From: Candidatus Goldiibacteriota bacterium HGW-Goldbacteria-1
GTDB lineage: Bacteria; Oederibacteriota; PGYV01
Length of the DNA stretch: 62,595 bases
Direction: 5' to 3'
NCBI GenBank assembly: GCA_002839855.1
Contig: PGYV01000002.1
Span: 1 to 62,595 of the forward strand
Made by a program: the position numbers and the translations under genes. Shown piece after piece: positions 1-53,375 of the stretch (position 1 is the first letter of the stretch; every line of letters starts with the position of its first letter). The notes beneath the pieces were generated by a model, which had not been told where the DNA came from, searched no databases, and saw only the letters and a list, made by a program, of their open reading frames with translations.

Positions 1-290
1 GTGACAGGTAGCAAGTGACAGGTAGCAAGTGACAGGTAGCAAGTGACAGGTAGCAAGTGACAGGTAACAAGTGACAGGTGACAGGTAGCAAGTGACAGGT
101 AACAAGTGACAGGTGACAGGTGACAGGTAGCAAGTGACAGGTGACAGGTAGCAAGTGACAGGTGACAGGTAGCAAGTGACAGGTGACAGGTGACAGGTGA
201 GTTGTAAGCTGTAAGCTGTAACTTGTAACTTGTAACTTGTCAGCTGTAACTTGTCAGCTGTAACTTGTCAGCTGTAACTTCTCAGCTTCT
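1..290. repeat. Heptamer array A1 (family A), split forward / reverse-complement
   Basis: This tandem array of degenerate 7-bp units (GTGACAG, GTAGCAA, GTAACAA) begins at or before the window edge. Near position 201 it switches to the complementary sense (GTAACTT, GTCAGCT) and runs in that sense to about 289. The transcript could therefore fold into a long imperfect hairpin. It ends about 15 bp before the tyrS ribosome binding site and accounts for the whole gene-free stretch at the start of the window. It has no spacers and is not CRISPR-like. Related arrays lie at 3414-3727 and 47195-47486. Confidence 0.9.
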
Positions 291-1571: not shown

Positions 1572-2072
1572 ATGAGAAAAAAATTAAAATACTGCCCGTA
1601 TTGTTCCGCAAGGTTTGAAGATAAAAAAGAACACGGGTTTAAACGGCATTACTGCCCAAAGTGCGGCGATTTTTTTTATGATAATCCGCTTGTTGGCACC
1701 GCGGTCGTTGTAGTACAGGGCGGTCAATTATTGCTTGTTAAAAGAAATATTCATCCCGGCCGCGGAATGTGGGCGCTTCCGGGCGGTTTCGCGGAACAGG
1801 GCGAAACCGTGCAGGCAGCCGCAAAAAGGGAGCTGTTTGAAGAAACGGGTTTAAAAGCAAAAAAAGCTGAAATAGTAAGCGTGCTGACAGAAAACTCTTT
1901 TATGTACGGAACTGTAATAGTACCTGTCATAAAAGTTGAAGGTTATACCGGAAAATTAAAACCCGGCAAAGACGAACTTGAAGCAAAGTTTTTTAACATC
2001 AATAAACTGCCTCTTCTGGCATTTACCAGTCACAGGAAGGCGGTTAAAAAGATTAGAAGGTCGGAAGGTTAG
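1572..2072 (+). CDS. Nudix hydrolase with N-terminal zinc ribbon
   Basis: A 166-residue Nudix hydrolase of the zinc-ribbon subgroup, which includes NudC/NADH-pyrophosphatase-like and ADP-ribose pyrophosphatase-like enzymes. The zinc ribbon is C8-x2-C11 and C28-x2-C31. The Nudix box runs from G72 to L94 (GX5EX7RELFEETGL) with all catalytic glutamates present. Members hydrolyse nucleoside diphosphates linked to another moiety; the exact substrate cannot be read from sequence. The last codons (RRSEG) and the stop lie inside repeat C (2054-2135), so the extreme C-terminus is repeat-derived. The gene sits between tyrS and an EndoQ-type nuclease. Confidence 0.9.
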   Translation: MRKKLKYCPYCSARFEDKKEHGFKRHYCPKCGDFFYDNPLVGTAVVVVQGGQLLLVKRNIHPGRGMWALPGGFAEQGETVQAAAKRELFEETGLKAKKAEIVSVLTENSFMYGTVIVPVIKVEGYTGKLKPGKDELEAKFFNINKLPLLAFTSHRKAVKKIRRSEG

Positions 2073-2135
2073 AGGGTTGGAAGGTCAGAAGGTTTAACCG
2101 ACCATCTGACCTTCTGATCTTCTGACCATCGGTTT
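2054..2135. repeat. Short-unit array C with hairpin, terminator-like
   Basis: Units related to AGAAGGTC run forward from about 2054 to 2093, covering the Nudix stop codon, then appear as reverse complement (GACCTTCT) from about 2098. A clear stem pairs 2083-2093 (GGTCAGAAGGT) with 2101-2111 (ACCATCTGACC) with one mismatch and a 7-nt loop. A T-run follows at 2133-2137. The architecture matches array families A and D, with unrelated unit sequence. It could end or attenuate transcription between the Nudix gene and the EndoQ gene. Confidence 0.8.
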
Positions 2136-2158
2136 TTAATAATTTATGAGGTGTTTCT

Positions 2159-3415
2159 TTGCGAATAATAGCGGATTTTCATGTTCACTCTAAATATTCC
2201 CGCGCTACAAGCGCGTCCATGAACCCGGTGGAAATATGCGGGTGGGCGGATAAAAAAGGCATTTCTGTTATAGGTACCGGTGATTTTCAGCATCCGGCTT
2301 ATCTTGGTGAGCTAAAAAACAAGCTTGAAGAAGCTGAACCGGGTTTGTACAAAGTTAAAAAAAGCAAATTCAAGTCAAGAATGGTGCTTTCAACAGAGAT
2401 ATCCCACATTTATAAGCAGGGTGATAAAGTCCGCAAGGTGCACATGCTTGTGATAATGCCGGATATGTTATCTGCCGAGAAGTTTTCTAAAAAGCTTGCC
2501 ACTCTTGGCAATACCGGGTCAGACGGCAGGCCCATACTTGGGTTTCCCGCAAAAGACCTTGTAAAGCTTACCCTTGATATCGCGCCTGACGCCATGGTTA
2601 TACCGGCGCATGTATGGACGCCGTGGTTCTCTGTTTTTGGCAGCAAGTCCGGCTTTGACAGTATAGAAGAGTGTTTTGAAGATCAGGCAAAACACATACA
2701 CGCCATAGAAACCGGGCTGTCATCAGATGCTGCCATGAACCACAGAATATCCGCGCTTGATAATATCACGCTTATATCCAATTCAGACGCGCATTCGCCC
2801 CGCAAGATAGGCAGGGAAGCAAATGTTTTTGAATGCAGCCTTGAATATAAAACCATTAAAAATGCCATATATAAGAAAGACAAAAAGAAATTCCTTTATA
2901 CAATAGAGTTTTTCCCGGAAGAGGGAAAATACCATAACGACGGACACCGGCTGTGCGGTATAAATTACCACCCCAAAGAGTCAATAAAAAACAAAAACAT
3001 ATGCCCTGTATGTAATAAAACGCTGGTTCTTGGCGTGCTGCACCGTGTGGAAGAACTTGCGGACAGGCCGTGGGATTATATATCAAAAGACGCCATACCG
3101 CAGAAGCATGTAATACCGCTGGAAGAGATAATTGCGGATGTAAAGGAAGTATCCCCGTCAAGCAAGAAGGTTCAGGAAGCATATGAAAAGATGCTTGTAA
3201 AAGGCGGCACCGAATTTGAAATACTTCTGGACAGGACGCCGGAACAGTTAATAAATATCTGCGATGAAAAAACCGCGGAAGCAATAATGCTTGTAAGACA
3301 GGAAAAAGTAAATCTGGTTCCGGGTTTTGACGGGGAATTCGGTAAAATATCAATATTCAAAAGACCGGACACCGCAAATACGAAAAAGAAAAAACCGCAG
3401 TTGGATCTTTTTTAA
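2159..3415 (+). CDS. EndoQ-type PHP-domain endonuclease
   Basis: A 418-residue protein of the endonuclease Q family (TIGR00375-type, PHP domain), which nicks DNA 5' of deaminated bases (uracil, hypoxanthine, xanthine) and abasic sites. Visible PHP metal motifs are D6-F-H8-V-H10, GTGDFQHP, the histidine in PAHVWTPW and NSDAH near the domain end. A Cys cluster follows (LCGINYHP then CPVC), matching the family's zinc site, then a C-terminal helix-hairpin-like segment. The start is TTG, with GAGGTG at 2148-2153 as ribosome binding site. EndoQ is best known from archaea and a minority of bacteria. Its stop codon abuts array A2. Confidence 0.88.
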   Translation: MRIIADFHVHSKYSRATSASMNPVEICGWADKKGISVIGTGDFQHPAYLGELKNKLEEAEPGLYKVKKSKFKSRMVLSTEISHIYKQGDKVRKVHMLVIMPDMLSAEKFSKKLATLGNTGSDGRPILGFPAKDLVKLTLDIAPDAMVIPAHVWTPWFSVFGSKSGFDSIEECFEDQAKHIHAIETGLSSDAAMNHRISALDNITLISNSDAHSPRKIGREANVFECSLEYKTIKNAIYKKDKKKFLYTIEFFPEEGKYHNDGHRLCGINYHPKESIKNKNICPVCNKTLVLGVLHRVEELADRPWDYISKDAIPQKHVIPLEEIIADVKEVSPSSKKVQEAYEKMLVKGGTEFEILLDRTPEQLINICDEKTAEAIMLVRQEKVNLVPGFDGEFGKISIFKRPDTANTKKKKPQLDLF

Positions 3416-3727
3416 GTAACAAGTTTCAAGTTACAGCTTACAGGTGACAAGTAACAGGTGACAAGTAACAAGTAACAAGTAACAAGTGACAGGTGACAGG
3501 TGACAGGTGACAGGTGACAGGTGACAAGTAACAGGTGACAGGTGACAGGTGACAAGTAACAGGTGACAGGTGACAAGTAACAGGTGACAGGTGACAGGTG
3601 ACAACTTGTCAGCTGAAACTTGTAACCTGAAACTTGTAACCTGAAACGTGTAACCTGTAACCTGTAACCTGTAACTTGTAACCTGTAACCTGTAACCTGT
3701 AACCTGTAACCTGTAACCTGTAACCTG
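3414..3727. repeat. Heptamer array A2 (family A), split forward / reverse-complement
   Basis: The array starts inside the EndoQ stop codon (TTAAGTAACAAG). Units AGGTGAC / AAGTAAC run to about 3603, then the complementary units GTAACCT / GAAACTT run to 3727. It fills nearly the whole 330-bp gap and ends 8 bp before the ribosome binding site of the next gene. An 11-bp box ACTCGTGGAGG (3728-3738) follows directly and recurs after array A3. Confidence 0.93.
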
Positions 3728-3745: not shown

Positions 3746-4792
3746 ATGAAACGTAATGTGCGCGGGATTTTAATGCTTATGGCGGTTATTTTTACAGGAT
3801 ACAACCTTATCCTGAATGTATATATTAAGGACGCGCTTAAGGTAATTGACAGGTCTTCGGGATATGCTTTCTGCGTAAGTGTCATACCTGACAGAATAAC
3901 GTTTTTTGACGTGAAAATAAGAGATAACGCAAGGATAAAAAGGCTTACCCTGGATGTGCGTGTCCGTAACATCATAAAGAAGGACATTTTTAAGGCGCTG
4001 GACGGGGCGATATTAAACGGCCTTACGGTAATATATTCGGCTGATGATGTCTATGAAAAAGAAAAGGCAAAAACGGCTCCGTTTATAATGCCTTATTTTA
4101 ATTACCTTTCAGTTAAGAACTCCGAAATTGTTTATCTGGATACGGCCTCTTTTACGGAAGTGAAGGTTTCCGGTATTTCGGGCAAAAGCAGGTTTATAAA
4201 CACCGGAGCACAAAGCGGGCAGAAACTTATTTTTCAGGGTAACGGCAATTTTCAGGGGGATACATCGCAGAAAATAAATATAAGGTTTGATTTCTTTCCT
4301 AATTACCGCAACAGGCTTTCGGTATCTGTATTTGGAAAGGGGATAAGCGCGGAAGAACTGGCGCCGCTGTTTGCCCGCAGCAATGCGGTTATTCAAGGCG
4401 GTAAAATAGATTTTATTGTGCAGTTTAAGAATGAACTGCGGCAGGTGAGTTTTAATAACATCATGCGTTTTAAAAATGTTAAAATAAAAGAGAAAACAGA
4501 CCTTGATATTAAATCGCTGTTTGGTGTCTCTTATTCGCAGATGACGGATTTTTTAAAGGACGCCAGCGGGGTGTTTGACGTTAATTTCACTTTTAACACG
4601 CCGGAAGCACAACCGGATGAGTTTTTTAAAATTTATAAGTCAAAGTTTGCCGAAGCGCTTGCCGGCAGGGTGGCGATAGGAATTGCGATAGCGCCCATAC
4701 GGCAGATACACGGGCTTATCTGGGCTATAACAGGAATTGGATCTGACAAAGCGGATAAGGACGTAATTGGAATATATCCGGAAATCAGATAA
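3746..4792 (+). CDS. AsmA/DUF748-like membrane-anchored envelope protein
   Basis: A 348-residue protein with one N-terminal hydrophobic segment (about residues 7-26), then a beta-rich region resembling AsmA/DUF748-type proteins. It ends in an amphipathic segment rich in I/A/G. AsmA-like proteins span the periplasm and are linked to lipid transport and outer-membrane homeostasis. Assignment here rests on overall pattern only: short N-terminal anchor, ITFFDVKI-like strands and a late GVFDVNFTF strand. GGAGGAG at 3734-3740 supports the ATG. It is the first gene after array A2 and lies 23 bp before the LOG gene. Confidence 0.5.
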   Translation: MKRNVRGILMLMAVIFTGYNLILNVYIKDALKVIDRSSGYAFCVSVIPDRITFFDVKIRDNARIKRLTLDVRVRNIIKKDIFKALDGAILNGLTVIYSADDVYEKEKAKTAPFIMPYFNYLSVKNSEIVYLDTASFTEVKVSGISGKSRFINTGAQSGQKLIFQGNGNFQGDTSQKINIRFDFFPNYRNRLSVSVFGKGISAEELAPLFARSNAVIQGGKIDFIVQFKNELRQVSFNNIMRFKNVKIKEKTDLDIKSLFGVSYSQMTDFLKDASGVFDVNFTFNTPEAQPDEFFKIYKSKFAEALAGRVAIGIAIAPIRQIHGLIWAITGIGSDKADKDVIGIYPEIR

Positions 4793-12899: not shown

Positions 12900-13090
12900 G
12901 GCGCAGCTGGGCGGCTGGGCAGCTAAGCGGCTGGGCAACCTTTTAAAGACGCGGCTGGGCGGCTGGGCAGCTAAGCGGCTGGGCAACCTTTTTAAGGCGC
13001 AGCTGGGCAGCTGGGCAGCTAAGCGGCTGGGCAACCTTTTAAAACCGCAGCTGGGCGGCTGGGCGGCTAAGCGGCTGGGCAACCTTTTAA
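12893..13090. repeat. Octamer array B1 (family B), 48-bp higher-order units
   Basis: Four copies of a 48-bp unit are visible. The anchor AAGCGGCTGGGCAACC occurs at 12925, 12973, 13021 and 13069, an exact 48-bp period. Each unit is six octamers (GCAGCTGG, GCGGCTGG, GCAGCTAA, GCGGCTGG, then GCAACCTT and TTAAAGAC-like). The array starts within the amrS stop codon and fills most of the gap to the four-helix-bundle gene. Related arrays are at 14115-14289, 16743-16780 and 53333-53375. Confidence 0.93.
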
Positions 13091-13126
13091 AATGGACAAA
13101 TCAGTATTAAAAACATAGGGGGGGAA

Positions 13127-13471
13127 ATGAGTACTTATAGGGATTTAACCATATGGCGTGATAGTGTTGCGCTTATTAAGAATGTTTATGCAATTGCAGA
13201 AAATTTTCCTAAATCAGAAGAATTCAATTTAAAACAACAGCTTAAACGTGCTGTTGTCTCTGTCTCGTTGAATATTGCAGAAGGTAAAAGCAGAAAAACA
13301 GGCAAAGATTTTGCTAATTTTCTGTCAATGGCAAACGCTTCTTTGTCAGAAGTTGAAGCTGTTCTTATTATAAGCGGGGAATTAGGTTATATTAAGTTTG
13401 ATGGTAAACTTCCGGATGATATAGCGATTCTTGGCAGAAAAATAGACTCGTTAAGAAATAAAATTAAGTAG
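13127..13471 (+). CDS. Four-helix bundle protein (S23/TIGR02436 family)
   Basis: A 114-residue, all-alpha protein of the four-helix-bundle family, first named from 23S rRNA intervening sequences and related to the Avd accessory protein of diversity-generating retroelements. Typical landmarks are YRDLTIWRDS at the N-terminus, FNLKQQLKRAVVSVSLNIAEGKSR, and FLSMANASLSEVEAVL. Length is normal. The molecular role is unknown; homologues form pentamers and bind nucleic acid. No rRNA or reverse transcriptase is nearby. It is flanked by arrays B1 and B2 in opposite orientation. GGGGGGAAATG gives the start. Confidence 0.9.
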   Translation: MSTYRDLTIWRDSVALIKNVYAIAENFPKSEEFNLKQQLKRAVVSVSLNIAEGKSRKTGKDFANFLSMANASLSEVEAVLIISGELGYIKFDGKLPDDIAILGRKIDSLRNKIK

Positions 13472-14114: not shown

Positions 14115-14289
14115 TTGTCCGGCTGCGGTTTTAGGGTTGCCCAGCTGCCCAGCTGCCCAGCCGCCCAGCTGCTCAGCTGCTCAGCTGCTCAGCTGCTTAG
14201 CTGCCTAGCTGCCTAGCCGCCCAGCCTCCCAGCTGCGTTTTTTAAAGTTTGCCCAGCCGCCCAGCTGCCTAGCTGCTCAGCTGCGGTCC
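14115..14289. repeat. Octamer array B2 (family B), opposite orientation
   Basis: On the + strand this reads CCCAGCTG / CTCAGCTG / CCTAGCCG. It is the family B unit on the minus strand. It begins directly at the stop codon of the minus-strand SurA-like gene (stop 14290-14292) and runs towards maf. In that direction its first bases (CTTTAAGGACCGCAGC) match the stop-codon edge of B1, so unit orientation follows the upstream gene. The part nearest maf (14115-14135) is degenerate. Confidence 0.9.
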
Positions 14290-15765
14290 TTAAAGATTTC
14301 CCTCGAAGTACTTCACCTTCGCTTCCGTTTTTAACGCTTCAACTGTGTCTTTGTATAATTGTTCAAACTTAATTTCTTTATATTTTGTATCAAGTTCGTT
14401 ATACTCTTTCCTGAATTTTGTTTCGTCAAGCGCGGACTGTTTTTCCGATACCAGTTTAATTACATAATATGCGGCCTCGCCGGTAATCATGCCGGACGTA
14501 TCGCCGACTGTCATGTTAAGCGCTTCGTCTTTAAAACTTTCGGTGTCAATGCCGGAAAGTTTGCTGTCTTTGTTAAAGCCGGATGCCTGTTTTATTACCG
14601 CGCTGTTTTTTGCTGCCGCTGTCTTAAAATCAGCGCCTGTTTTTATATCCAAAAGGAAACTGCTGCAGTGTGCCTGTGCGGCTTTCATGCCTTCCTGTTT
14701 TTCAAGTTCTGCTTTAATTTTATTACGTTCTTTATCAAATGTGGGTTCGTATCCGGTTTCTCTGCCTGTTACCTTTATTATATGGTAGCCAAACTGTGAT
14801 TTTACAACACCGCTTATTTCGCCTGTTTTTAAAGCAAAAGCGGCTTTTTCAAATTCCGCCACCATCTGGCCGCGTTCAAAATATCCCAGGTCGCCGCCTT
14901 TTGCGCCGGAACCGGGGTCCTGTGAATACTGTTTTGCAAGGTCAGAAAAAGAAGCGCCGCCGCGGGCTTTTACAACAAGTTCATCCGCAAGCTTTTTTGC
15001 GGCTTCATCGGTGCGCCCGGTAGGGGAAGTGGGGGAAGAATCCGCCATTATAAGTATGTGTGATGCTTTCACGCGCTCGGGTTTCGCGTAATTCTTTTTG
15101 TTAACGGCATAATAGTCCTTCATTTTTTCTTCTGTTATGGCCAGCTCTTTAAGGTAGTTTTTATACCCAAAGTAAGCATAGTCCGCGGTTAATGTCCTGT
15201 TTCTTTTTGCGGCATACATTCTAAGTTCGTCATCTGTGGCTTTAACATCCATCCACATAAGGTTGCGAAGTTTCTGCATTATAATCTGTTTGCGCTGGCT
15301 TTCTTCAAAATCCTGAATGCTTATGCGCTGGCTTGTAAGTATCTGATAATAGCGGTTTCTGTCAAAGCGCCCGTCCTGGCCGGCAAAAGCGCGTATCTGC
15401 ATGATAGATTCGCCCACTTCCGCATCGCTTGCCATAATGCGCATTTTCTTTGCGTAATTAAGCAGGACCTTGCTTTCTATAAGCTGTTCCAGCAGTTCTT
15501 TCTTCATGGTTTTTTCTTCGGCTTCAGAAACCGTGCGCCCGCTTGCGTATATTTCATCCCTTTTATTGGACCACGCCTGTGACAGTTCCGTATAGGTGAC
15601 AGGCTGCTTTCCTATAAGAGCCAGCACATCCGGATTGCCGTTGCCGCTGTCAAAAGACGACTTTGCCCCCCAGACCGCGAAAATAGCGATCATAAAGGAG
15701 ATAATGATGGCAGGCACCACCCAGACTAAAATGGCCTTTGCCTTGTAACGTAATGTATTCATCAT
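14290..15765 (-). CDS. SurA/PpiD-like membrane-anchored peptidyl-prolyl isomerase
   Basis: A 491-residue periplasmic foldase. One N-terminal transmembrane helix (about residues 12-32, ILVWVVPAIIISF) anchors it as in PpiD. A SurA_N-type helical chaperone domain follows (about 40-210). A parvulin/PpiC rotamase domain lies at about 232-345, with KASHILI, FSDLAKQYSQDPGSGAKGGDLGYFERG and FGYHIIKV. The C-terminal ~140 residues look like a second, degenerate parvulin-type region. Likely role: folding of outer-membrane or secreted proteins, such as the PorV-like barrels in this window. The minus-strand ribosome binding site GAGGTGG precedes two ATG codons; the first is used here. Confidence 0.88.
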   Translation of the reverse strand: MMNTLRYKAKAILVWVVPAIIISFMIAIFAVWGAKSSFDSGNGNPDVLALIGKQPVTYTELSQAWSNKRDEIYASGRTVSEAEEKTMKKELLEQLIESKVLLNYAKKMRIMASDAEVGESIMQIRAFAGQDGRFDRNRYYQILTSQRISIQDFEESQRKQIIMQKLRNLMWMDVKATDDELRMYAAKRNRTLTADYAYFGYKNYLKELAITEEKMKDYYAVNKKNYAKPERVKASHILIMADSSPTSPTGRTDEAAKKLADELVVKARGGASFSDLAKQYSQDPGSGAKGGDLGYFERGQMVAEFEKAAFALKTGEISGVVKSQFGYHIIKVTGRETGYEPTFDKERNKIKAELEKQEGMKAAQAHCSSFLLDIKTGADFKTAAAKNSAVIKQASGFNKDSKLSGIDTESFKDEALNMTVGDTSGMITGEAAYYVIKLVSEKQSALDETKFRKEYNELDTKYKEIKFEQLYKDTVEALKTEAKVKYFEGNL

Positions 15766-16807: not shown

Positions 16808-17860
16808 ATGTTAAAATTTTATGAAAATAGAAAAGTTTTAATTACCGGCTGTACCGGTTTTAAAGGGACGTGGTTGTCGCGGATTCTAATCAATACGGGA
16901 GCCGTGGTTACAGGATATGCTCTGGAACCGCCCACAGAACCCAGTCTTTTTAAATTGATAAAACTTAATAAACAAATGAAATCAATAACCGGGGATATAC
17001 GTGATATTGAAAAACTTTCAAAAACTATAATAAAAGAAAAACCGGAGATTGTTATCCATATGGCGGCACAGCCGCTTGTACGGGAATCCTATAAAGACCC
17101 TGTAACAACTTATGAAACCAACGTGATGGGCACGGTTAATATCCTGGAAGCGTGCAGAAAAGCGCCTTCTGTAAGGTCGATAGTTAATGTTACCACGGAT
17201 AAAGTGTACGAGAATAAGGAATGGGACAGGGGATATAATGAAGACGACGTTTTAAACGGGCATGACCCGTATTCCAATTCAAAATCGTGTTCAGAACTTG
17301 TTACAAGCAGCTACAAAAAGGCGTTTTATAACGAAATAGATAATCCGGCGCTTTCTTCCGCGCGTTCCGGAAATGTAATAGGCGGAGGGGATTTTTCGCA
17401 GGACAGGCTTATTCCGGATTGTTTTAGGGGTGCAAAAGCGGGCCAAAACGCGGTAATACGCAATCCGCAGTCCACAAGGCCTTACCAGCATGTGCTTGAC
17501 TGCCTGTCGGGTTATCTTTTGCTTGCCGAAAAACAGTATAATAAAAAATTATGCGGAAGTTATAATTTTGGACCTGCAGAAGGCGACTTTGTAAATAATG
17601 AAGAACTGGTAAAAATGTTCTGTGACGCGTGGGGTAATAATTTAAAGTATGAAAACAGGCCTGATAACGGCCCGCATGAAGCGCACTTTTTAAAGCTTGA
17701 TATAACAAAAGCAAAACAGGAATTAGGGTGGAAACCAAAGTTAAATGTGAAAACTGCTGTTGAAATGACCGCGCAGTGGTATAAGGCGTATTTGAATAAA
17801 GAAGATGTTGTTAAAATTATGGATCAGCAGATAAAGGATTATTTTGAAATAGCGGATTAA
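16808..17860 (+). CDS. rfbG: CDP-glucose 4,6-dehydratase
   Basis: A 350-residue NAD-dependent short-chain dehydrogenase/reductase that converts CDP-glucose to CDP-4-keto-6-deoxyglucose. NAD-binding TGCTGFKGTW lies near residue 14. The catalytic region has NVTTDKVYENKEW (Thr/Asp) and YSNSKSCSEL (Tyr-x3-Lys). The family marker VRESYKDPVTTYETNVMGT is present. Length matches characterised RfbG/DdhB. It starts 3 bp after rfbF with a weak ribosome binding site (ATAAGG), consistent with coupled translation. Its stop codon (ATTAAGCTATAGG) lies inside the first unit of array D. Confidence 0.95.
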   Translation: MLKFYENRKVLITGCTGFKGTWLSRILINTGAVVTGYALEPPTEPSLFKLIKLNKQMKSITGDIRDIEKLSKTIIKEKPEIVIHMAAQPLVRESYKDPVTTYETNVMGTVNILEACRKAPSVRSIVNVTTDKVYENKEWDRGYNEDDVLNGHDPYSNSKSCSELVTSSYKKAFYNEIDNPALSSARSGNVIGGGDFSQDRLIPDCFRGAKAGQNAVIRNPQSTRPYQHVLDCLSGYLLLAEKQYNKKLCGSYNFGPAEGDFVNNEELVKMFCDAWGNNLKYENRPDNGPHEAHFLKLDITKAKQELGWKPKLNVKTAVEMTAQWYKAYLNKEDVVKIMDQQIKDYFEIAD

Positions 17861-18078
17861 GCTATAGGCAATTAAGCAGAAGCGGAAGATTAAAACATAG
17901 CGATTTAAGCTATAGGCAATTAAGCAAAAGCGAGAAAAATAACGTATTAAGCTATAAGCAATTAAACATAAGCGAAAGATTTAAGATAGGTTTCGCTATA
18001 GCTTAAATGCTTAAACTGCTAAAGTGCTATGTTTAACGGTTTCGCTATAGCTTAAATGCTTAAACCGCTAAGGTGCTA
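17857..18078. repeat. AT-rich split array D between rfbG and rfbH
   Basis: Three direct units beginning TTAAGCTATAGGCAATTAAG (about 17857, 17906 and 17955) are followed by two units in opposite sense beginning GGTTTCGCTATAGCTTAAAT (about 17992 and 18040). TTAAGCTATA in the first half is complementary to TATAGCTTAA in the second, so the RNA can fold back on itself. The array fills the gap from the rfbG stop to about 20 bp before the rfbH start. Same architecture as families A and C, different sequence. Confidence 0.87.
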
Positions 18079-18101
18079 TTATTATATGATTGGAGTTGTT
18101 T

Positions 18102-47194: not shown

Positions 47195-47486
47195 CAGGTA
47201 ACAGGTAGCAGGTAACAGGTAACAGGTAACAGGTAACAGGTAACAGGTAGCAGGTAGCAGGTAACAAGTAACAGGTAACAAGTAACAGGTAACAGGTAAC
47301 AGGTAACAGGTAACAGGTAACAGGTAACAGGTAGCAGGTAACAGGTAACAGGTAGCAGGTAACAGGTAACAGGTAACAGGTAACAGGTAACAGGTAACAG
47401 GTAACAAGTAACAGGTAACAGGTAACAGGTAACAGGTAACAGGTAAGTTCTAACTTGTAAGCTGTAACTTGTAACTTGTTAGTTAG
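47195..47486. repeat. Heptamer array A3 (family A)
   Basis: Mainly GGTAACA / GGTAGCA / AGTAACA units run from just after the PorV-like stop to about 47446, then a short reverse-sense tail (GTAACTT, GTAAGCT) runs to about 47486. It ends immediately before the 11-bp box ACTCGTGGAGG (47490-47500) also found after array A2. It fills the 316-bp gap. Confidence 0.94.
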
Positions 47487-53332: not shown

Positions 53333-53375
53333 GCGGCAGCTAGGCAGCTAGGCAGCTAGGCAGCTAGGCAGCTCG
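53333..53375. repeat. Octamer array B4 (family B)
   Basis: Five GGCAGCTA units run directly from the TPR-gene stop codon, on the same strand as that gene, ending in GCAGCTCGG. The sequence is the AGCTAG variant of family B. A GTAG hairpin follows within 10 bp. Confidence 0.88.

Follow-up and report, generated by a model that had tools for sequence, protein, structure and literature searches.

The genome of Candidatus Goldiibacteriota bacterium HGW-Goldbacteria-1 (hereafter G000; 2,862,642 bp in 18 contigs) carries fast-evolving intergenic tandem arrays of 7- and 8-bp units that are anchored at the stop codons of genes, have a set polarity and are predicted to pair with themselves; they are nearly restricted to one genus, within which they are gained and lost and their unit families are replaced. 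The preferred reading, to which we assign a probability of about one in two, is that these arrays are the two arms of a fold-back located just after stop codons, that is, a 3'-end stem-loop grown by slippage. The G-rich sense units that run from the stop codon and the antisense units that come next would form the arms; these would grow and shrink by replication slippage, and their pairing, in DNA during replication and/or at the mRNA 3' end, would keep sense and antisense units together, with the RNA fold-back serving as a 3'-end structure. In kind, the arrays match repeats already known elsewhere, namely the heptamer arrays found between genes in Xanthomonas and Nostoc and the STRRs of cyanobacteria.

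Arrays in the window and across the genome

The window, a stretch of 62,595 bp at the start of contig C2 (G000:C2:1-62595), contains five arrays that the first-pass annotation had delineated and described as running in one sense and then in the complementary sense; both the locations and this arrangement were confirmed, with A1 at 1-287, A2 at 3416-3727, A3 at 47195-47479, C at about 2050-2132 and D at 17847-18079. Three of the five consist of heptamers. A1 (about 1..290, + strand), truncated by the contig start, comprises sense and then antisense heptamers and precedes the tyrosyl-tRNA synthetase gene. A2 starts right after the stop codon at 3413-3415 with a sense half of CARG-T(G/A)A heptamers (3416..3603, +), followed by an antisense half of CTGTAAC heptamers (3604..3727, -) that ends 18 bp short of the ATG at 3746. 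A3 (about 47195..47486, +) has the short reverse half originally ascribed to it, with 36 sense words and an antisense end of 3 words. The units of the different arrays had been taken to be unrelated, which is incorrect: A1-A3 represent one heptamer family, CARG-TNA (CAGGTGA, CAAGTAA, CAGGTTA and other variants in which CARG is followed by TNA), and the genome's octamers, too, fall into related families. A search of the window against Rfam gave no match.

Array C (about 2050..2138, +) is built of octamer AGAAGGTC arms, sense and then antisense, followed by TTTTT, and overlaps the 3' coding end and the stop codon of a NUDIX gene (1572-2072). The NUDIX protein ends in ...HRKAVKKIRRSEG in G000 and in ...HRKAVRKLKKDRGTDAQRDRGTEG and ...HRKAVRELIKGRGTDAQRDRRTEG in two congeners; the protein tail is encoded by array C, which extends into the gene, and changes with it. 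At A2, the end of the upstream protein is kept across congeners and the array begins after it. That protein (gene 2159-3415) has relatives in several candidate phyla and no Pfam match, and ends in QLDLF, which we take to resemble a sliding-clamp-binding motif. Array D (17847..18079, +) is AT-rich and degenerate, with higher-order units of about 48 bp in sense and then antisense orientation, and overlaps the coding end of an epimerase gene.

Three additional arrays of the window, made of GCAGCTGG or GGCAGCTA octamers, are mostly single-sense. The first, of GCAGCTGG/GCGGCTAA octamers (12900..13091, +), consists of four 48-bp blocks in a single sense immediately after a stop codon; the second, of GCAGCTGG octamers (14138..14284, -), is separated by 5 bp from the stop codon that ends gene 14290-15765, also on the - strand; the third, (GGCAGCTA)n (53335..53373, +), follows a stop codon and is itself followed by a REP-like palindrome, and its place is taken in the congeners by another octamer family. 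Directly downstream of the array of 48-bp blocks is a gene for a 23S rRNA intervening-sequence protein (13127-13471; PF05635, weakly bAvd-like).

The phenomenon is real and extends past the window. A period detector, combined with a home-made gene-calling script, was run over 862,595 bp (30% of the genome); the intergenic arrays that it picked up comprised 34 with period 8, 21 with period 7, one with period 6 and none with period 9; C and D fall below the detector threshold and are absent from these counts. Nearly all period-7/8 arrays (55/57) are intergenic, with two in coding sequence, and against the 55 real arrays, ten shuffles of the intergenic sequence yielded 0, 0, 0, 0, 0, 0, 1, 1, 0 and 0. 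The enrichment is confined to periods 7 and 8. Repeats of another kind, runs of 12-bp coding repeats of the ACACAGACNGTA type, occur within one very long gene (G000:C3:66051-71283). That the arrays might be assembly artefacts, a concern raised at the outset, is unlikely because orthologous arrays are present in three separate assemblies; arrays also lie inside long contigs. Contigs do break at arrays (A1 and several contigs of G001).

Order, position and predicted pairing of the arms

The order of the two senses is nearly invariant. Counted in sense (S) and antisense (A) words, the 11 heptamer gaps read S25A16, S36A3, S9A37, S15A1, S13A1, S9, S6A4, S22A8S1, S30A28, S6A7 and S33A13; ten of them carry both senses, all sense-first, one with a trailing sense word and two with a single antisense word that could be there by chance. 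Among the octamer gaps with both senses, 16/17 begin with sense words, as defined by the arrays' own G skew, and this includes gaps between divergent genes. Heptamer blocks in five stretches of the congeners G001 and G002 read S2A10, S31A1, S16, S2A12 and, as the exception, S1A1S1A14. The shared plan and the non-random sense that had been proposed from the window alone are thus borne out (10/10 heptamer and 16/17 octamer two-sense gaps).

The anchoring at stop codons holds generally as well. In 23/33 gaps that have a facing stop codon an array begins within 10 bp of it, compared with 6.6 expected and a maximum of 14 in 10,000 random placements; counted per array, the numbers are 24/52, 4.8 expected and a maximum of 13 in 20,000 placements, after four arrays had been dropped from this test, three because their gaps hold Ns and one for its place at the window edge. 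At 21 of the 25 stop-adjacent array ends, the G-rich strand reads away from the stop. A placement that is random relative to genes and sense, which had been named as the pattern that would count against a shared plan, was tested for and not found. The further claim that arrays stop within about 25 bp of the next start is correct within the window and fails as a general rule, with only 5/48 array/start pairs within 30 bp. Arrays occupy 8/21 convergent, 25/249 codirectional and 5/35 divergent gaps of at least 60 bp, so that convergent gaps are enriched (8/21 vs 30/284 for all others, P = 0.0017), and 5/38 array-bearing gaps lie between divergent genes, away from any nearby gene 3' end, which counts against the 3'-end reading.

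At 6/11 heptamer gaps, CAG(G/C)T directly follows the stop codon of the gene, so the stop codon itself is in the register of the array. As a general seed of arrays, "stop codon plus CAG(G/C)T" was rejected: it occurs at 10/722 genes, with about 1.4 expected, and most of these ten appear to be the array gaps. The register could, in principle, reflect a translational signal, in which the heptamers would either place stops in all frames behind the gene or serve as a regulator's binding site close to the next start, a function of the sort suggested for the TAACTGA repeats. The middle triplets of 188 sense-half heptamers (TTA 75, TAA 62, TGA 40, TAG 7, other 4) seem to fit such a role, as does the juxtaposition of stop codon and CAG(G/C)T; however, the commonest triplet, TTA, is no stop on the sense strand, the low numbers of TGG and TTG are about those expected from base frequencies (a hand estimate), the octamers lack the stop-triplet feature, few arrays come close to a start, and doubled TAACTGA is absent from the sample. 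This explanation is accordingly highly improbable. The idea that heptamers specially favor internal stop codons was likewise discarded, the triplet counts giving no clear excess over base frequencies by the same hand estimate.

The fold-back postulated in the first-pass annotation is supported by structure prediction. The predicted fold of the whole A2 gap has an energy of -150.6 kcal/mol (0/100 shuffles as good, z = -11.2), and that of C an energy of -47.5 kcal/mol (0/200 shuffles as good, z = -7.1). In the whole-gap comparison, from which gaps over 450 bp were left out, the mean z was -4.0 in 8/11 heptamer gaps and -1.5 in 22/27 octamer gaps, against -1.4 in 30 control gaps. Since the octamer gaps do no better than controls against shuffles, the antisense part was re-inverted in silico instead: this weakens the predicted fold in 7/8 heptamer and 10/15 octamer gaps (the test was limited to gaps of up to 600 bp that have at least two antisense words), with the heptamer gap C2:65270 being an exception that folds better un-flipped. 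Furthermore, in 17 octamer gaps the arms of the same gap match each other better than they match the arms of other gaps (0.52 vs 0.38, P = 0.0023), in part because both arms belong to one unit family.

In most heptamer arrays the unit variants differ between the two halves; the second half therefore did not arise by recent copying of the first, and a simple one-step inverted duplication was rejected. Hairpin-primed copying, suggested earlier as the way in which such arrays could arise, is a possible origin, but the difference between the halves speaks against a recent event.

Some of the octamer elements look like long intrinsic terminators, with octamer arms followed by a T-run, namely C and the elements at C3:39504, C3:134197 and C4:44805. 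The bases that follow the last antisense octamer arm are T-rich (0.44 vs 0.32, P = 0.0005, n = 19 gaps), and a stable hairpin with a T-run directly after it is found in C and several octamer gaps; A2 and A3 were checked for a T-run or terminator-like site and have none. Judging by these features, some octamer elements plausibly serve as terminators, C and the three elements named above being the candidates. The heptamer arrays A1-A3 might at most protect the 3' end or slow the polymerase, and may be tolerated passengers. The roles of 3' mRNA stabiliser, transcription barrier and operon insulator put forward in the first-pass annotation are candidate functions. At the A2 locus, the gap of about 11 bp in G002 makes the flanking genes look cotranscribed there, so that a strong terminator would be costly. 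The possibility that arrays replace ordinary terminators was rejected because terminator-like sites are not depleted in array gaps: they are present in 9/23 codirectional array gaps vs 74/219 other codirectional gaps and in 4/8 convergent array gaps vs 5/12 others, compared with 8/80 for shuffled sequence.

Distribution and turnover among congeners

The arrays are nearly restricted to one genus. The heptamer pattern occurs in 5/45 genomes of the phylum, that is, in three congeners and in two others with one and three stray hits, and the octamer pattern occurs in 3/45; the octamer of the GGATGCAC type is found in 3/12 queried genomes of the order. In sampled stretches of relatives, period-7/8 intergenic arrays number four in 240 kb of G002 and one, weak and AT-rich, in 80 kb of G007, whereas a stretch of 80 kb from G028 contains none; because short-read contigs often end in arrays, the counts for relatives are lower bounds.

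Within the genus, turnover is conspicuous. The protein encoded upstream of A2 (2159-3412) has an 83%-identical relative in the metagenome-assembled contig JAKQNO010000039.1 (G002) and a closer one in G001 (92%). A comparison of close genomes for length change, which had been recommended, shows A2 at 330 bp in G000, at 142 bp in G001, where the sense half is almost lost, and reduced in G002 to about 11 bp with no array. The gap orthologous to that of A3 holds, in G002, an ordinary terminator-like hairpin with a T-run. Altogether 98 orthologous gap comparisons were made, and the 88 at gaps that lack an array in G000 keep their length (median 33.5 vs 32). For array gaps, the tally covers ten comparisons at nine gaps plus C and A2 against G002, with the outcomes classified by reading: the unit family is replaced at three (C2:53332, C4:318152 and C), and kept at five, and at three the relative has no array. 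Both arms have changed at C4:318152 (own-arm scores of 36 and 26 vs cross scores of 11 and 8); the evidence that they did so at C is weaker (16 and 17 vs 8 and 14). These comparisons indicate that the arrays are young, with fast gain, loss and change of unit words across three related genomes.

Rapid turnover and the near confinement to one genus also fit the main rival reading, in which the arrays are neutral passengers, produced by slippage that favors units of about 7-8 bp and persisting only where no coding sequence or ribosome-binding site is broken; in a compact genome, the base pairs after a stop codon are such a tolerated place. That the authors of the Xanthomonas study could assign no role (PMC4692102), and the polymerase-footprint idea for 7-bp units cited in PMC4679880 and PMC4692102, agree with it. 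However, random placement in the same gaps gives 6.6 and not 23 stop-anchored gaps out of 33, and the sense-first order with one flip and the best match between arms of the same gap are left unexplained, so we consider passengers a possible but less probable account than the slippage-grown stem-loop.

A more far-reaching possibility, which we regard as rather unlikely, is that the two arms are rewritten in concert by some process tied to gene ends, for example by hairpin-templated copying in replication, so that a whole unit family is replaced jointly in the sense and the antisense arm of a gap. If so, the 3' ends of genes in this genus would be continually re-templated by a few 7-/8-mer families, and that process would also have given rise, with a different result, to the repeats of Xanthomonas and Nostoc.

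The genus offers a natural experiment: at orthologous gaps an array is present, shortened, unit-swapped or missing, one genome combines two unit lengths, and polarity relative to the stop codon is strict. This makes testable whether arm pairing is under selection or is a mutational product, and whether these structures end or protect transcripts.

Comparison with known repeats and mobile elements

The view that no known repeat class combines these features had to be abandoned, given the Xanthomonas and Nostoc heptamers (Rehm et al., 2015; PMC4692102) and the cyanobacterial STRRs. According to Rehm et al., arrays of the heptamers GGGAATC and GGGGA(C/T)T occur on the coding strand where they overlap the stop codon or come within 50 bp of it, and on the other strand within 50 bp upstream of starts; they are few between divergent genes, in Xanthomonas they form convergent inverted pairs (70 cases in Xcc and 75 in Xac), and the G-rich arrays tended to coincide with transcript starts or ends, with no role assigned (PMC4692102). 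As in that account, the arrays described here are genome-wide, short-unit and intergenic, place a G-rich coding strand at the stop, frequently form convergent inverted pairs and vary strongly in length among relatives. Unlike the repeats in that account, octamers here outnumber heptamers, the arrays are longer, unit families are replaced between congeners, and REP-like palindromes occur in the loop. Doubled GGGAATC, GGGGATT and GGGGACT are absent from the 862,595 bp surveyed; the heptamers of G000 hold at most GG (some octamers hold GGG), and because these heptamers have no G-tract core, quadruplexes are not the common feature.

The cyanobacterial STRRs are intergenic hairpin-forming heptamers proposed to act in transcript stability, translation coupling or termination (PMC2670836), and A1-A3 resemble them as intergenic tandem heptamers able to form a predicted hairpin. 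An intergenic 20-mer of Nostoc PCC 7120, ttgtcagttgtcagttgtca (csR1.1; PMC2408588), occurs exactly, ten overlapping times, at G000:C2:147044-147126, within an array (G000:C2:147023-147218) whose antisense half is (TTGTCAG)n. The octamers and the consistent single, stop-anchored flip set the G000 arrays apart from STRRs as the consulted sections of PMC2670836 and PMC2408588 describe them. A Trichormus plasmid (250 kb) holds six period-7/8 intergenic arrays, two of them within 10 bp of the facing stop (0.16 expected).

The TAACTGA direct repeats, reported in Beggiatoaceae, cyanobacteria and Bacteroidetes, lie in Maribeggiatoa mostly just upstream of starts and are almost never inverted (MacGregor, 2015; PMC4679880). 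They share with the present arrays, on the same account, the intergenic location, related letters (CAACTGA and CAAGTGA here), steps of 7 nt and absence from close relatives with the same gene order; tandem TAACTGA itself was not found in the 862,595-bp sample. CRISPR arrays differ in that the present units, of 7-8 bp, are contiguous and lack spacers. Intrinsic terminators share the hairpin shortly after the stop codon, and C ends in TTTTT; unlike terminators, A2 and A3 lack a U-tract, the arms are tandem arrays, and the total length reaches several hundred bp. In the literature searched, with subscription journals mostly outside it, no description of stop-anchored octamer pairs or of concerted unit replacement was found. 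Compared with the known heptamer arrays, the sequences suggest the same plan, to which octamers, longer arrays, visible unit replacement and units that do not form quadruplexes are added here.

Like REPs and REPINs with their RAYTs, the arrays are intergenic inverted pairs of fixed polarity, and REP-like motifs share gaps with them; unlike these elements, they have neither a fixed palindromic core nor a GTAG-type tetranucleotide. Conceivably, the arrays are mobile miniature elements, the sense-antisense pair moving as a hairpin, in the manner of REPINs and their Y1 (RAYT) transposase, and landing beside stop codons. The same unit families turn up in many gaps of a single genome, D-like copies are present at many places in G001 and G002, and orthologous sites are found both filled and nearly empty. 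The REP-like palindromes in array gaps moreover show the same order as the arrays (GTAGNCGC motifs in the G000 genome: 12 SA, 0 AS, 1 ASA), each of the three genomes has two Y1 genes, and in G001 and G002 REP-like motifs flank a small Y1 transposase gene on both sides. Against this, the arrays share no fixed ends, length or core, and arm length and unit sequence differ gap by gap, which makes mobility of this kind improbable. Transposition by the Y1 enzymes themselves was rejected, as 0/6 Y1 loci hold an array.

The Y1 loci display some features of their own. At L156 and L157 (G001:C106 and G002:C128), the motifs on both sides of the small Y1 gene are of the GTAGNCGC type. The two Y1 hits in G000 are open frames of about 330 aa that lack GTAGNCGC flanks. 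At L155 (G000:C15), a Y1 transposase gene of about 330 codons is bordered by an inverted repeat that includes CCTTGACTCATGACAT.
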